Source: a virus
Direction: 5' to 3' (one strand)
Virus record (IMG/VR): IMGVR_UViG_3300030116_004806
Coordinates: 5,361 to 45,325 of that record
Length of the DNA: 39,965 nucleotides
Shown here: piece after piece, positions 107 through 39,965 of the stretch
How positions within the stretch are numbered: the stretch's first letter is position 1
How the letters are laid out: every line of letters starts with the position of its first letter
Position numbers and translations under genes: made by a program
Notes under the pieces: model-generated
The model's input: only the letters and a program-made list of their open reading frames with translations
The model's database searches: none
Told to the model about the DNA's origin: nothing

Positions 107-438
107 TCTACTACGTAGCAACAATAGTTATGTGTTTCCACGGTGTCTGTACACAATTTGAATCTGTACCCTATGCCAAGAACATATCAGCTGACAACTG
201 CCAAAGAATGTTGGTGTACACGTTTAAAACACAGGTAGGCCCATATTACGACAAGATTATAGACTTTGAAAAAGACAGTCCGGAGGACATTAAGATAGAA
301 TATGCAGGTTGTGATACAACAAGAAGAACACCAGAGGACAGCAACGAATGGAAAATAACACCAAATGTCGATCCAGAGTTACTTGTACCTCATCAGCATG
401 ATCTTCGTTGGCAACAGGAGCAGGGAGATAAAATATAG
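97..438 (+). CDS. Small hypothetical protein with hydrophobic N-terminus
   Basis: This encodes 113 residues from a GTG start with a GGAG ribosome binding site at 85-88; no in-frame ATG lies nearby. Residues 3-19 are hydrophobic and look like a short signal peptide or membrane anchor. The rest is soluble, polar and rather acidic, with Cys at 13, 18, 35 and 72, which would suit disulphides if the protein is exported. It ends in TAG, whose last G begins the next gene's GTG (TAGTG), so the two are probably translationally coupled. I do not recognise the family. Its position upstream of the small terminase places it in the late region. Confidence 0.65.
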   Translation: MPLVYYVATIVMCFHGVCTQFESVPYAKNISADNCQRMLVYTFKTQVGPYYDKIIDFEKDSPEDIKIEYAGCDTTRRTPEDSNEWKITPNVDPELLVPHQHDLRWQQEQGDKI

Positions 439-1259
439 TGGGTAAATCTTGGAATTATGGTAATCTTCCTAAAAAAAGAAAGAAAAGAAAAAAATATAAT
501 AAGGGTGGTAAAGCAAAAGAATGGACACAAGAACAAATTAATATTTTAAGTATGGCAGATACTGAATTAGCTGCAGAATTGTATCCTTATTTAGAAAATA
601 ACCCTGTAGCTAAATTAGGATTAGATTCCTATCTTTTTGAACAAGGAAAAATAGATCCAGATAATTTTAACCAAAAGTTATTAAAAATTAGAACTGATCC
701 TAATATTGTAAAAATATATAAAGCTTTACAAGAAGGTAGAACAGATGTACGTGTAAGTCCAGCAGCAGCTAAATATAATAGGAAAACTGATCAAATAACA
801 ATGAATATGCTAGGTGGTTGGTATAAAACAAATCCTGAAATTACAGGAAAAATACCACAGAAGGAATTTATATTTACACAAGGAGAGTATGGTCCAGAGA
901 CTGTTTGGGCAGGAGCTCATGGTAAAAAAGGGCAAATATCAAATTTAATACATGAATTAACTCATAGAGGTGCTAACTATTTACAGCAAAATTTGCCAGA
1001 GTATAGCAGGGAATCTATAGATAAAGCTATAAAAGAAAACAAACCTATTCCTATTTATAAACAAATGCTTGATGATCATCCAGCTATGGAGGTAGGGGAT
1101 AGAGAAGTAGCTGATAAATTAGGTATACAGTTTCAAGGTGTAGATTACCGTAATTCAAAAAAAAGAGCTGAATGGAGAAAAAAGGCTATAAAAAGAACAT
1201 GGAAAGCAAAACCTTATTTAAGTAAAAGATACCCTAGTACAAAAACTTGGAATTACTAA
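438..1259 (+). CDS. Putative zinc metalloprotease-like protein (HExxH)
   Basis: 273 residues from a GTG start that shares its first base with the previous stop. Residues 11-28 are very basic (KKRKKRKKYNKGGKAK). The centre has a clear HELTH motif, with H172, E173 and H176, preceded by the hydrophobic segment ISNLI as expected for the active-site helix of zincin metalloproteases. A third zinc ligand would be expected downstream; E217 or D220 near EVGDREVAD are candidates but cannot be assigned by eye. The protein ends in a basic tail. The stop overlaps the start of the terminase small subunit (TAATG). A role in processing a virion or host protein is inference. The HExxH pattern can occur by chance, but its helix context here is good. 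Confidence 0.6.
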   Translation: MGKSWNYGNLPKKRKKRKKYNKGGKAKEWTQEQINILSMADTELAAELYPYLENNPVAKLGLDSYLFEQGKIDPDNFNQKLLKIRTDPNIVKIYKALQEGRTDVRVSPAAAKYNRKTDQITMNMLGGWYKTNPEITGKIPQKEFIFTQGEYGPETVWAGAHGKKGQISNLIHELTHRGANYLQQNLPEYSRESIDKAIKENKPIPIYKQMLDDHPAMEVGDREVADKLGIQFQGVDYRNSKKRAEWRKKAIKRTWKAKPYLSKRYPSTKTWNY

Positions 1260-1675
1260 TGCAGCACAACGGAATACTAGCTGAAAAGAAAAAAGAATTA
1301 ACAGACAAGCAGAAATCATTTCTTTCTCATTTGTTTGAAACTGGTGGAAACATCAATGTAGCTCTTGATAAAGCAGGATATAGTAAGACTTCACGAAGCA
1401 TGGTGTTAAAAGCATTATCGGATGAGATAATAGAAGCAGCCAAAACAGAAATGGCTGCACACTCAGTAACAGCAATAAATAGAGTAGTAGAAGGAATGAA
1501 TGATGTGGGTGAACATCCACGAGCAGAGTTGAGATTGAAGGCTGCCCAGACTTTGTTAGATAGAGTAGGACTGGGAAAGCAAGAAAAAGTAGAAGTAGAA
1601 GGCAAGATGTTGCATGGTGTAGTTCTTATGCCAGCAAAAAAAGCTATGCCAACTGTAACAATCAACGAGGAGTAA
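1259..1675 (+). CDS. Terminase small subunit
   Basis: 138 residues starting at the ATG that overlaps the previous stop (TAATG); a TTG four codons upstream is also in frame but less likely. The order of features fits small terminases: an N-terminal 'LTDKQKSFLSHLFE' segment followed by 'GGNINVALDKAGYSKTS', which is the helix-turn-helix pattern of the Terminase_2-like families, then a helical 'AELRLKAAQTLLDRVGLGKQEKV' region for oligomerisation (split here as AELRLKAAQTLL and DRVGLGKQ). The family recognises the packaging start on viral DNA and recruits the large subunit. The large subunit gene lies about 3.8 kb downstream, separated by small accessory genes, so the two are not adjacent as they often are. 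Confidence 0.8.
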   Translation: MQHNGILAEKKKELTDKQKSFLSHLFETGGNINVALDKAGYSKTSRSMVLKALSDEIIEAAKTEMAAHSVTAINRVVEGMNDVGEHPRAELRLKAAQTLLDRVGLGKQEKVEVEGKMLHGVVLMPAKKAMPTVTINEE

Positions 1676-1679
1676 CAAC

Positions 1680-1754
1680 ATGTGGAAATCACCATCTATT
1701 AAAGAAATATCTGTAGGTCTTGAAATCAATTGCTATGCATGTGCAGAAATTTAA
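1680..1754 (+). CDS. pqqA: PqqA-like precursor peptide (PQQ biosynthesis)
   Basis: A 24-codon gene, ATG to TAA, with an excellent GAGGAG ribosome binding site at 1667-1672, seven bases from the start and overlapping the end of the terminase small subunit gene. The peptide has the PqqA layout: W2, K3 and P5 near the start, G13, then E15-I-N-C-Y19. In PqqA the Glu and Tyr of the ExxxY motif are cross-linked by the radical SAM enzyme PqqE and become the skeleton of pyrroloquinoline quinone. Length (usual 22-24 residues), the Glu-Tyr spacing and the flanking W-P and G residues all match. C18 and C21 flank the Tyr. No pqqB-E genes are in the window, so host enzymes would be needed. It could also be a relative of PqqA used for another purpose. 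Confidence 0.75.
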   Translation: MWKSPSIKEISVGLEINCYACAEI

Positions 1755-1757
1755 ATA

Positions 1758-1967
1758 ATGTCTGACATAAAATTACCTCATAACATAGATTTAGCAAAAA
1801 CTATGAAAGCTATTAAAAAAGCCGGAGAAGATAGACCATATTTTTCTCTTAGTGCAGCTGAACAAAATGCATTATTAAATAAATATGCAGTATATAAAAC
1901 TGAACCAACAGGGCCCGGTAATAAAAAATATGCACGAGGTGGTGGAGTACGAAAGGTCAGATATTGA
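1758..1967 (+). CDS. Small protein with C-terminal KKYARGGG tag
   Basis: 69 residues. It starts three bases after the pqqA-like stop with no strong ribosome binding site, so coupling to that gene is likely. The N-terminal two thirds is helical-looking and polar. The last 14 residues, from K56, carry KKYARGGGVRKVRY, a basic glycine-rich tail also found at the ends of the proteins at 37122-37355 and 37359-38015. No enzymatic motif is visible. The tail suggests a common binding or targeting signal (inference). The next gene's TTG start overlaps the TGA stop. Confidence 0.65.
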   Translation: MSDIKLPHNIDLAKTMKAIKKAGEDRPYFSLSAAEQNALLNKYAVYKTEPTGPGNKKYARGGGVRKVRY

Positions 1968-2536
1968 AAAATAAACGGAGAGGAAATGTTTTTATACTAA
2001 GCTGTTTAGCATTGTGTCTAGTGCTATTATTTTCAGCCTGTGCTTTAGAAACACATGCTGCAGATACTGTAACATCAACTTCCTCTACCGTTTCAGGAAC
2101 AACTACTGTTGATAGAACCCCAAATACAGCCTCGGCTCCATCAGTAGTTGTAAACAACCAAGATGTTTGTAGTTTTGCTGCTACAGGAGCTTTACAAACA
2201 CAGATATTTGGTTTAGCTGGTGGAACAGCTGTAAGAGATATGAATTGTGAAAGGTTAAAGTTATCAAGAGCTTTATACCGTATGGGAATGAAAGTAGGAG
2301 CCATAGCTATGCTCTGTCAAGATGCAAGAATATTTCAAGCTATGGATATGGCAGGCACCCCCTGCCCTTACAAAGGAAAAATAGGACTTGAAGCTGCAAA
2401 AGAATGGGCTAATAATCCTGAGAAACGACCAGATTACGAAGAATGGAAAAAAGAGAATGTTAAAACAGAAGAAGTCGTCAGTGATGAAGGTGCTCTTGGC
2501 ATCTTCTCTATTCTTCTCATGTTACTCTTTATCTAA
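1964..2536 (+). CDS. Secreted or lipoprotein-like hypothetical protein
   Basis: 190 residues from a TTG start overlapping the previous TGA (TTGA); the only nearby ATG, at 1986, is out of frame and quickly stops. Residues 2-6 are basic, residues 8-25 hydrophobic, ending in FSACALETHA. This could be cleaved by signal peptidase I after ALETHA or be a weak lipobox at C26. A Ser/Thr-rich linker follows, then a compact region with Cys at about 68, 93, 117 and 133 that could form disulphides in the periplasm. The last 16 residues (LGIFSILLMLLFI) are strongly hydrophobic. That hydrophobic end is encoded by the same DNA as the signal peptide of the next gene in another frame. Function unknown; I infer a role at the cell envelope. 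Confidence 0.65.
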   Translation: MKNKRRGNVFILSCLALCLVLLFSACALETHAADTVTSTSSTVSGTTTVDRTPNTASAPSVVVNNQDVCSFAATGALQTQIFGLAGGTAVRDMNCERLKLSRALYRMGMKVGAIAMLCQDARIFQAMDMAGTPCPYKGKIGLEAAKEWANNPEKRPDYEEWKKENVKTEEVVSDEGALGIFSILLMLLFI

Positions 2537-5491: not shown

Positions 5492-7087
5492 ATGAGAGCA
5501 AAGTTAGCTACACAAAAACAGCTTTCGGAAAAAAGAAAAAGAGCAGAGAAGCTTACGAAGCAAGCAAAGAAAGCTAGGGCAACAGCTAAACGAGCTCAAG
5601 AGGCAACAAAAAAAGTAGATGATGCGTTAAAAGGTAGAAGTCAAACTGTTGTAACAACAGATGATTTAAAACACATACCAAAAAAGTTACGAGATCATTT
5701 AAAAGACCATGATGTTGTGTTTAGACCAAACGAAGGGCCTCAAACTACTTTTTTAGAATCTCCAGAAAGAGATATACTTTATGGTGGTGCAGCTGGTGGT
5801 GGTAAATCTTATGCTCTTTTAGCTGATGTGTTACGAGATGCTTCTAATCCTAATCATAGAGGGTTACTACTAAGAAGAACACTTGCTGAACTAACAGAGT
5901 TGATAGATAAAAGTAGACAAGTGTACACCAAAGCTTTTCCCGGTGCTGTATTTAAACAAGCTAAATCAACATGGGAGTTTCCATCTGGAGCAAAGATATG
6001 GTTTTCGTATGTAGATGATGACAGAGATGTAACACGATACCAAGGACAAGCTTTTAATTGGATAGGTATAGATGAAATAACACAGTATCCTACACCTTAC
6101 GTTTGGAATTATTTACGATCTCGTTTAAGAACAACCGATCCAAATCTTAATATGTACATGCGTTGTACAGCTAACCCCGGTGGTGTTGGAGGTTGGTGGG
6201 TAAAGAAGATGTATTTAGATCATGCACCTCCCGGTGAACCTTTTTGGGCTAGGGATTTTGACAGTGGAGAAATATTACGTTATCCAACTAGGCATACAAA
6301 ATCAAATGAACCTTTGTTTTTACGTAAGTTTGTACCAGCAAGATTAACAGATAATCCTTACCTATTTGATGACGGTCAATATGAAGCTATGTTGATGTCG
6401 TTACCAGAAGTAGAAAGAAAAAGATTATTAGAAGGAGATTGGGATGTAGCCGAAGGTGCAGCCTTTACAGAGTTTAGTAAAAGTATGCATGTTGTAGAAC
6501 CTTTTGATATACCAGAAGGTTGGGCTAGAATAAGATCTGGAGATTATGGATACAGCAGTCCTTCCTGTATACTTTGGGGTGCTATTGATTGGGATAACAA
6601 TATTTGGATATACAGAGAACTTTATGTTAAAGGGTTTACGGGAGAAAGATTAGGAGACACTATTGCTGAGATGGAACGTGAAGATCCACAAATGCAACAT
6701 GCAGTATTAGACTCATCATGTTGGAATAAAACAGGGTTAGGACCTAGCATAGCAGAGACAATGATACGAAGAGGAGTAAGATGGATACCGGCAGATCGGA
6801 ATCGTATGGCAGGAAAGATAGAAGTACATCGAAGGTTAGCTTGTGATGACTACGGAAATCCTCGTGTTCGTATTTTTTCCCATTGTAATAATCTTATTAG
6901 AACTTTACCTACATTGCCCTTGTCTAAAACAAACCCTGAAGACGTTGATACAAAAGCTGATGACCATGCGTATGATGCGTTGAGGTATATGGTGATGAGT
7001 AGAACTTTAGTAAATGTACACAGTCCTCATAGAATGACTCGGTACACACAGAAATATGAACCACAAGATCAAGTATTTGGATATTAA
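5492..7087 (+). CDS. terL: Terminase large subunit
   Basis: 531 residues from the first ATG. It is the ATP-driven motor and nuclease that packages DNA through the portal. Walker A is GGAAGGGKS at 98-106 (K105), Walker B is WIGIDE with D194 and E195, and the C-terminal RNase H-like nuclease has likely metal ligands D351 (SGDYGY), D407 (LDSSCW) and D491 (ADDHAYDALRY). The first 50 residues are a basic helix. The ATG has no ribosome binding site. The frame is open back to 5399 and encodes a KKRGRPVKK AT-hook-like stretch, so the true product may be about 27 residues longer, starting at a non-standard codon (ATA at 5411) or by frameshift from the preceding gene. Confidence 0.95.
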   Translation: MRAKLATQKQLSEKRKRAEKLTKQAKKARATAKRAQEATKKVDDALKGRSQTVVTTDDLKHIPKKLRDHLKDHDVVFRPNEGPQTTFLESPERDILYGGAAGGGKSYALLADVLRDASNPNHRGLLLRRTLAELTELIDKSRQVYTKAFPGAVFKQAKSTWEFPSGAKIWFSYVDDDRDVTRYQGQAFNWIGIDEITQYPTPYVWNYLRSRLRTTDPNLNMYMRCTANPGGVGGWWVKKMYLDHAPPGEPFWARDFDSGEILRYPTRHTKSNEPLFLRKFVPARLTDNPYLFDDGQYEAMLMSLPEVERKRLLEGDWDVAEGAAFTEFSKSMHVVEPFDIPEGWARIRSGDYGYSSPSCILWGAIDWDNNIWIYRELYVKGFTGERLGDTIAEMEREDPQMQHAVLDSSCWNKTGLGPSIAETMIRRGVRWIPADRNRMAGKIEVHRRLACDDYGNPRVRIFSHCNNLIRTLPTLPLSKTNPEDVDTKADDHAYDALRYMVMSRTLVNVHSPHRMTRYTQKYEPQDQVFGY

Positions 7088-38015: not shown

Positions 38016-38233
38016 CGTAGTATTTTATATATGTCTCTCTCAAGCTGTACAGAATGATTGGACAAGTAGTTTAACAAAGCCACAATAACTTCTGTGTTTT
38101 GATATTGATCGTTCCACTTGTCCATCACCTCTTTAAACTCTTCCGGCTTGAGGCATTCATGTTCTACAGCAACATGTCCTGCCTGTGTAAGCTTTACCGA
38201 AAAGTTAAACAACTTAGCTTCTTCATCATACAT
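38012..38233 (-). CDS. Small hypothetical protein downstream of RNR
   Basis: 73 residues on the minus strand. Its ATG overlaps the TAA of the ribonucleotide reductase gene (TAATG on the minus strand), so the two are coupled. The sequence is soluble and acidic (MYDEEAKLFNFSVKLT, then PEEFKEVMDKWNDQYQ), ending in a basic helix. No known motif. A role connected with nucleotide metabolism is suggested only by the operon. Confidence 0.6.
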   Translation of the reverse strand: MYDEEAKLFNFSVKLTQAGHVAVEHECLKPEEFKEVMDKWNDQYQNTEVIVALLNYLSNHSVQLERDIYKILR

Positions 38234-39965
38234 TAAATATCCACTAATTCACACACTCCAGCTGTACAAGCTAATTCTTGAGAACCTTTAGTGTTATCTT
38301 CCTTCTCATAGTCTTGTAATTTTTGCCAATCAATTGAGGTTGGCATTTTTTTTACGAGTTTTTTATATTCTTTTTCATCTATATCTTGATAGGGAGCCTG
38401 TTGATATGTGTGGTCGGAGAAGGGAAGAAAGGAAACACCACTCAAGTACTGGAAGTTATCCCAGCACCATGCACCAACAGGCACCCACTCGTCTTCTTTT
38501 ACCGAGATGGTAACAGAAGGTTTGTGTTCACACCAATGTTTTGCATAAATTTTCCATATCTCTAGCTGTTCTATAGCAGTCATATCATGCCTGCACACAG
38601 AACCTTTTGGTGCCATCATAGGAAAAGAAAACACTGTTGTGTGATCTGGTTTTAGATAGTCTGGCTCGTTAGGTATACCAGATTCTCTCATAAATTCTGT
38701 AAGAGGATCTTTGTTATCTCCTCGTACTGTTCTAATATAATAAGGATTGTGTCTTGCATGTATGCCACTTGCACTGTCTACTAACTGACTAACAGTACCA
38801 GAGGGTTTAACACAAGTGATTGCTGTACTTTGGTTAATACCAAACTTCTCTGCCCAATACTTATTAGCTTCTACAGCAACACTACGTAATGTTTCTAACC
38901 GTTTTTCTAAACCGTCTTCTCTACCATTCATCAACGGACTATCCATAATACCTGTAAGAGACACACCGAGTAACCTCTCTTCTTCGGTGTTGTTCTGCCA
39001 TCTCTTTCTTAGGTATCCAAAATTAGTAAACGTAGATTGTACTGTACCAAGAAAAGTTGCAATCTGTATCTTCTTAGTTAGTGATTTCATAGTATCTGTA
39101 GATCGTACAACAACTTCTGTAAGATTACAAAATTGATTAGGTCGTAGTATAATCTCACTACAAGGATTTGTACCAAAATCCCAAGATGCATCTCTCCTAC
39201 CATTCTCAGCAGCTTTTGCCTGTGCAGAAGATCTACTAAATATACCTCTCTCTCCAGATTTACTTTCATACAAGGACAGCCACTCTTTCATAAAGATACC
39301 GACATCTGGCTTTTCTGTATAGGCTACAGAGTTGTTAGCCAATGCCCTTTGTGGATTATCATTCCACCATTCACCCATCTTTGCTTTACGTATTCTTTGA
39401 TCGGATAAGTTAGATAAAGATATTAGAGCAGATCGTCTTACACCACCAACTACTACTACCTCACCTGTCTTACAAACTATATCATGGCATTCCATAGAGG
39501 ACAGCTTTCTGCCTTTTGCATCTTTAAACTTTGTAATCGTAAAGTCAAACAAATCTACCAATGGCTGTGGCCCACTAGCTCTACCACCAAATGTTTTTAA
39601 CCTTGCACCTGCAGGTCGTAGTTTAGATACGTTTATCTTTGGTATCCTTGCTGTGTACAGGTAAGATATTAAATCTCTAAATCCTTTTGCCCAACCTTCC
39701 TTAGAATCTACCACAGATATAACATCTTCTGTGTGTTCAAATTCTCTGTCTGGTACTGTAGGTAACTTATCTGCATACTGCCTCTCTACAGAAAAACCTA
39801 CCCCCGTACCATTCATGAGTATGTACAGCACTTCATCAAAAGCTTTAGGATTATCTATCGGTATATACGAACAGTTATAGCCAGCAATGTGCTCTTTCTC
39901 TAATGCTTTTCCTGCTGTCATTAAAGCTCTCATGCTAGGCATTACTTGTAAAGAAAGAATAGCCT
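38233..39965 (-). CDS. nrdJ: Class II ribonucleotide reductase (B12-dependent), partial
   Basis: At least 577 residues, continuing past the right edge; the ATG at 39942 lies inside 'LQVMPSMRALMTAG', which is a conserved interior stretch, so it is not the true start. The protein reduces ribonucleotides to deoxyribonucleotides using adenosylcobalamin. Numbering from that Met, C24 in YNCSY is the likely partner cysteine, C261 in NPCSEI the thiyl radical cysteine, C272 in FCNLTEV the second reductant; the spacing of 11 equals Lactobacillus RTPR C408 to C419. C559 and C564 in the tail CTAGVC are the shuttle pair. The monomeric RTPR-like layout fits marine phages. It is on the opposite strand from the structural genes. 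Confidence 0.92.
   Translation of the reverse strand, partial: AILSLQVMPSMRALMTAGKALEKEHIAGYNCSYIPIDNPKAFDEVLYILMNGTGVGFSVERQYADKLPTVPDREFEHTEDVISVVDSKEGWAKGFRDLISYLYTARIPKINVSKLRPAGARLKTFGGRASGPQPLVDLFDFTITKFKDAKGRKLSSMECHDIVCKTGEVVVVGGVRRSALISLSNLSDQRIRKAKMGEWWNDNPQRALANNSVAYTEKPDVGIFMKEWLSLYESKSGERGIFSRSSAQAKAAENGRRDASWDFGTNPCSEIILRPNQFCNLTEVVVRSTDTMKSLTKKIQIATFLGTVQSTFTNFGYLRKRWQNNTEEERLLGVSLTGIMDSPLMNGREDGLEKRLETLRSVAVEANKYWAEKFGINQSTAITCVKPSGTVSQLVDSASGIHARHNPYYIRTVRGDNKDPLTEFMRESGIPNEPDYLKPDHTTVFSFPMMAPKGSVCRHDMTAIEQLEIWKIYAKHWCEHKPSVTISVKEDEWVPVGAWCWDNFQYLSGVSFLPFSDHTYQQAPYQDIDEKEYKKLVKKMPTSIDWQKLQDYEKEDNTKGSQELACTAGVCELVDI

Follow-up and report, generated by a model that had tools for sequence, protein, structure and literature searches.

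Solitary pqqA genes in an HMO-2011-like marine phage and in unrelated phages: candidate suppliers of the PQQ precursor during infection

The pqqA locus and its phage context

We analyzed a stretch of 39,965 nucleotides (the window) that is part of the 45,325-base IMG/VR record IMGVR_UViG_3300030116_004806, and found a 24-codon open reading frame (ORF) directly downstream of the gene for the terminase small subunit, terS (Table 1). The stop codon of terS (1673-1675) is separated from the ORF by a gap of four bases. The encoded peptide carries W2, K3, P5, G13, E15, and Y19, the last two in E-x3-Y spacing (translation of 1680-1754). The original prediction for this DNA had named these residues, the length of 24 codons, and a GAGGAG motif seven bases away, and all of them are present in the sequence. 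It had described the product as a PqqA-like peptide, which is borne out by two profile models: the ORF scored 25.8 bits against PF08042 (Pfam PqqA; curated cut-off 21.1) and 29.8 bits against TIGR02107 (NCBIfam PqqA equivalog; E 4e-7, cut-off 20). An HMM built exclusively from PqqA sequences of the bacterial pqqABCDE operons found in this analysis gave 62.2 bits for the ORF, compared with 11.2 bits for the best of 100 dinucleotide-shuffled windows, and PqqA matched only once in the 45,325-base record. The window peptide has in common with bacterial PqqA (PF08042/TIGR02107) its length, W2-x2-P5, G13, E15-x3-Y19, and the C-terminal stretch. As read from the DNA, the ORF also has a length typical of PqqA (about 22-29 residues), its own start codon, and its own ribosome binding site, and purine-rich equivalents of this Shine-Dalgarno sequence precede the homologous ORFs in the phages examined. 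On these sequence matches, the ORF almost certainly encodes PqqA, whose counterpart in the host belongs to a metabolic pathway (bacterial pqqABCDE).

Table 1. Positions of the features discussed (window coordinates unless a locus is named)
Feature	Position	Strand	Description
273-residue ORF	438-1259		HELTH (zinc-peptidase-like) motif; just 5' of terS
terS, terminase small subunit	1259-1675	+	PF03592, 29.1 bits; PHROG terminase small subunit; 5' of pqqA
Shine-Dalgarno sequence GAGGAG	1667-1672	+	7 bases 5' of pqqA ATG; overlaps 3' end of terS
pqqA	1680-1754	+	predicted 24-residue PqqA precursor peptide MWKSPSIKEISVGLEINCYACAEI plus stop; Glu15 and Tyr19 are the predicted cross-link residues
69-residue ORF	1758-1967	+	function unassigned; starts 3 bases past pqqA
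190-residue protein	1964-2536	+	PHROG 20531 (unknown function); hydrophobic N terminus
terL, terminase large subunit	5492-7087	+	shares 48-54% identity with HMO-2011-type isolates across most of the protein
Class II (B12-dependent) ribonucleotide reductase	38233-39942	-	runs open at the record end
Two-piece tmRNA, T4-like pqqA phages	L127:7154-7486; record behind L162:5045-5355; L103		
346-residue radical SAM/SPASM protein, T4-like group	L127:8650-9690; L102:1538-2578		about 1.2 kb 3' of pqqA

The window pqqA is flanked by viral genes, with terS upstream and terL, portal, and capsid genes downstream, and the same holds for its relatives. Of the original placement between terS and a structural gene, the terS side stands; the structural side does not, as the 190-residue protein encoded downstream matches only a PHROG of unknown function. 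This protein (cluster c11) is a conserved downstream neighbor in close relatives too. The nearest relatives of TerL are those of HTVC115P, CRP-x, and HMO-2011, representatives of a phage type that infects SAR11, Roseobacter RCA, and SAR116, and the portal and capsid PHROGs of the window agree with this type; HMO-2011-type phages thus share the terminase, portal, and capsid families of the window (Qin et al., 2022; PMC9038755). By these sequence comparisons, the window virus is an HMO-2011-like marine phage. Unlike the window phage, four HMO-2011-type records (HTVC115P, HMO-2011, CRP-13, and HTVC033P) contained no PqqA when searched over the whole genome. Just upstream of terS lies an ORF with a zinc-peptidase-like motif that matched nothing in Pfam or PHROG, and a search of the record for tRNA genes as a clue to the host found none. 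The phage also encodes a B12-dependent ribonucleotide reductase, a kind that is common in HMO-2011-type phages and belongs to nucleotide metabolism (PMC9038755). The original prediction had read this gene as a second cofactor link; we found it to be an ordinary nucleotide-metabolism gene that is uninformative for PQQ.

In contrast to the bacterial pqqABCDE operon, the phage pqqA is solitary and lies in the packaging region without pqqB-E nearby. A genomic link to pqqB-E is usual for PqqA and not obligatory, as orphan copies are known; it is absent from the phage record. Radical SAM enzymes gave zero matches across the 45,325 bases, and the record therefore lacks PqqE. The absence of pqqB-E, already part of the original prediction, extends to other viruses: tblastn queries for PqqB, PqqC, PqqD, and PqqE, all from one marine alphaproteobacterium, matched none of 198 viral contigs, while the same queries matched about 25-26 of 38 bacterial loci. 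Enzymes with PQQ repeats were likewise found in none of 43 related viral records.

Conservation and selection in related phages

Scans based on PqqA select for its core, so the only unbiased measure of conservation comes from 43 relatives that we fetched by TerS, that is, without selection for PqqA. The ORF was intact with E15 and Y19 in 25 of these 43, and in distant ORF-bearing relatives (TerS about 74%) it lay some 500-1,200 bases past terS. Together with the window, this TerS-anchored set comprises 26 loci and 17 distinct DNAs, in which pN/pS was 0.023 for residues 12-23 and 1.7 for residues 2-11, marking a free N terminus. The frozen core and free N terminus recurred in the other groups of phages, and bacterial copies showed them in a weaker form. 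None of the 53 distinct phage DNAs departs from Glu15, Tyr19, or the spacing between them. Purifying selection acts on the PqqA core, and the original expectation of an intact ORF with a conserved Glu/Tyr pair in related phages is in line with these data. The gene was missing in 18 of the 43 relatives, some of whose loci are incomplete, and it is therefore dispensable or host-specific. No broken copy followed terS in the ORF-less relatives examined; other genes were found there instead.

These observations bear on two other readings of the gene. The first is that pqqA is a fragment of the host genome that was acquired passively and is unused, as its small size, its differing loci, and its absence from many relatives might indicate. 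We consider this highly improbable, given a core pN/pS of 0.01-0.02 with high synonymous change, retained ribosome binding sites, and the fact that three or more unrelated phage backbones, and methylophages as well, carry the gene. The second is that the peptide acts as a decoy, which would occupy PqqD/PqqE, lower host PQQ, and divert electrons or carbon from periplasmic oxidation. A lone substrate homologue could indeed compete in this way, and the phages carry no other pqq gene; yet a competitor needs neither both cross-link residues nor a C terminus more constrained than the N terminus. Both are observed, and the pattern of constraint is that of the bacterial gene, which makes a decoy quite improbable.

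Breadth among viral contigs and cultured methylophages

To this single locus we can add a large number of viral contigs. We scanned IMG/VR with an alignment of phage PqqA sequences and found at least 353 contigs that bear the PqqA type of the window, of which the best 80 of the 353 confirmed contigs were fetched; their viral status is taken from IMG/VR. At least three unrelated phage backbones, and smaller groups besides, carry this type: HMO-2011-like phages with the order terS-pqqA, phages of a portal-pqqA-groES type with a portal closest (40-42%) to those of HTVC027P, HTVC023P, and CRP-901/902, and T4-like phages with a two-piece tmRNA (ssrA), pqqA, gp33, and gp59. Mosig and Melnitz, two T4-like phages in culture, have no pqqA between ssrA and gp33. 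An exact IUPAC pattern matched viral contigs once; ORF and HMM checks found no PqqA there, and the match is probably due to chance. A second PqqA type, with the pattern G[FLM]E[VI]T.Y, matched at least 120 IMG/VR contigs, and all 120 of those listed read as complete small PqqA ORFs (23 residues in one example).

In the T4-like pqqA phages, the permuted tmRNA lies directly 5' of pqqA or slightly overlaps it. It is of the alphaproteobacterial type, with the tags ANDNFASQEYALAA and ANDNFAYEGYALAA; these are unlike the tags of candidate hosts (ANDNSRGVALAA and similar), and therefore do not name the host. This group also has a radical SAM/SPASM gene downstream of pqqA (Table 1), which we considered as a viral PqqE and rejected, since its PqqE score was 26.7 bits, with the cut-off at 381. 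Its proximity could suggest that the peptide is the substrate for a different RiPP, such as a signal or a lysis-timing peptide, made by radical SAM enzymes of host or phage. Beyond its low PqqE score, the enzyme is absent from the record of the window and from the other phage types searched, and the PqqA equivalog model itself recognizes the viral peptides, so that we regard a different RiPP as very improbable and retain the reading of the peptide as a PQQ precursor.

Among 50,697 phage records, tblastn with the window peptide and a close marine-type variant gave zero matches, and the PqqA type of the window is therefore absent from GenBank phages at that sensitivity. The second PqqA type matched 12 of these records. 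Methylophilales (OM43/LD28) are methylotrophs, and nine of the 12 records are Methylophilales phages: Venkman (MT375522), MEP301 (MW452941), MEP401 (OP830906), MEP402 (OP830907), four Melnitz isolates (Melnitz, MZ577097), and Methylophilaceae phage P19250A (KX815270). The other three are the uncultured podovirus ctXG6705 (Manatee Spring) and two Acinetobacter 'phage' contigs; besides the nine Methylophilales records, pqqA is almost absent from the phage records searched. In the record of Acinetobacter phage MD-2021a (CAKLQF020000010.1, L319), which we rejected as a pqqA phage, the matching stretch is a bacterial ppk-pqqABCD(E) locus and therefore looks like host DNA. Venkman, MEP301, and Melnitz represent three distinct groups and MEP401/402 another (PMC10580990), and P19250A belongs to the genus of Venkman (PMC8163748), such that the nine records span about four viral groups. 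NCBI taxonomy holds further Methylophilales phages outside these matches, and the gene can therefore not be claimed for all of them. All pqqA ORFs in the Methylophilales phage records are complete, and the site is unannotated in five GenBank records. In the Melnitz record examined, as in that of ctXG6705, a hypothetical ORF on the wrong strand covers pqqA; gene callers thus miss a conserved gene.

The original prediction concerned one locus; the wide distribution of solitary pqqA over unrelated phages, and its occurrence in methylophages that are in culture, go beyond it. As a kind, viral pqqA is already known, since it has been reported in the Lake Baikal virus VP_266, where it was proposed to support methanol oxidation by the host (Coutinho et al., 2020; PMC7678222), and pqqA, pqqE, and pqqD were listed among the viral genes of reservoir sediment in 2026 (PMC13188868). 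VP_266 is a virus of a freshwater methylotroph and also encodes methanol dehydrogenase, whereas the window belongs to an HMO-2011-like phage with a marine alphaproteobacterial peptide. The main texts of the papers on HMO-2011 (PMC9038755), Melnitz, MEP301, MEP401/402, Venkman, and pelagimyophages do not mention pqqA. Within the open-access literature, what appears to be new is how widely the gene is distributed, that it stands alone, and that HMO-2011-like, portal-groES, and T4-like marine phages as well as cultured methylophages carry it.

Candidate hosts and a proposed role in PQQ synthesis

The core VGLEINCYACA of the phage peptide also occurs in uncultured marine Alphaproteobacteria, and the identity between phage and bacterial peptides reaches 24 out of 24 residues. 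Several marine alphaproteobacterial genomes have a second, solitary pqqA outside the pqqABCDE operon (L047-L049, L070, L072, and L078-L082), and the gene upstream of this copy reads as a LysR regulator. Most peptides of the HMO-type phages are closest to this solitary bacterial copy, and one is identical to it. Orphan pqqA genes are also known from the methylotrophs Methylovorus MP688 and Methylorubrum extorquens AM1, in which extra solitary copies feed one PqqB-E set (PMC6520949). Those copies are chromosomal, whereas that of the window is viral; the marine bacteria studied here have a similar, LysR-adjacent solitary copy. In the candidate host genomes, PqqE was above its cut-off in 22 out of 24 and PQQ alcohol dehydrogenase in 17 out of 24; PqqD was present as well, and the gene order pqqA-B-C-D-E was found. 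We searched 28 genomes from the candidate order for related TerL sequences as a link to the host and obtained zero matches, so that we infer the host of the window phage by peptide similarity only. The original prediction had also stated what would speak against it, namely a broken ORF or loss of the Glu/Tyr pair in related phages, a lack of PqqA profile matches, and hosts without PqqD/PqqE; we encountered none of these, the last as judged in candidate hosts only.

PqqE, together with PqqD, joins a Glu and a Tyr within PqqA, and the peptide is then cut to release PQQ. One PqqA peptide is consumed per PQQ, while PqqB-E are reusable enzymes. We consider it likely that phage pqqA is a functional auxiliary metabolic gene that supplies only the consumable substrate of host PQQ synthesis, and viruses probably use it to sustain the PQQ enzymes of the host during infection. 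When infection shuts off host gene expression, PqqA would be exhausted before any other component of the pathway. The phage would encode this 24-codon consumable alone, translated from a ribosome binding site of its own; the existing PqqD/PqqE of the host would then cross-link Glu15 and Tyr19 of the phage peptide, and PqqB/C would complete PQQ. Periplasmic PQQ-dependent alcohol dehydrogenases would thereby stay loaded, allowing electrons to reach respiration during infection. That these phages carry pqqA alone and never pqqB-E would be explained by the peptide running out while the enzymes turn over. We infer expression of the gene, maturation of the peptide by host enzymes, an increase in PQQ, and a gain in fitness.

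Several observations in bacteria bear indirectly on the effect of pqqA supply. In Acetobacter, PQQ increased by 29% with plasmid-borne extra pqqAB, in favor of such an effect, but the increase was far larger, eightfold, with the whole operon (PMC7936290). Disruption of pqqA in M. extorquens lowers PQQ without abolishing it, where other copies may substitute, and the multiple pqqA genes of Methylovorus respond to different stimuli (PMC6520949). As for timing, late expression of the window pqqA, which the original prediction had put forward, is a guess from its position; the region of ssrA in phage Melnitz has been described as early (PMC9004378), and pqqA of the T4-like phages adjoins ssrA. The PQQ derived from the phage peptide might also serve a non-respiratory end, for instance by protecting the infected cell against redox stress or by being released when the cell lyses, given that PQQ is soluble and that many Gram-negative bacteria are reported to import it (PMC12124388). 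The link to methylotroph phages and the dehydrogenase-rich hosts point instead to the loading of dehydrogenases, and we think a non-respiratory end unlikely.

With somewhat less confidence than for the supply of substrate as such, we favor a more general proposal: that phages of PQQ-dependent bacteria have repeatedly and independently taken only the gene for the consumable precursor, that pqqA, with its 23-24 codons and skipped by gene callers, ranks among the most frequent auxiliary metabolic genes in viruses of methylotrophs and marine Alphaproteobacteria, and that the supply of PqqA is the control point of PQQ synthesis during infection. The cultured phage-host pairs of MEP301, MEP401/402, Venkman, Melnitz, and P19250A allow a clean test of whether PqqA limits PQQ synthesis. 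If the proposal is true, this tiny and usually unannotated gene would mark viruses whose hosts depend on PQQ. PQQ-dependent oxidation of methanol and other alcohols is an important one-carbon route in the sea and in lakes, and if viruses routinely top up the PQQ precursor, infection may raise or sustain the flux of one-carbon compounds through it.
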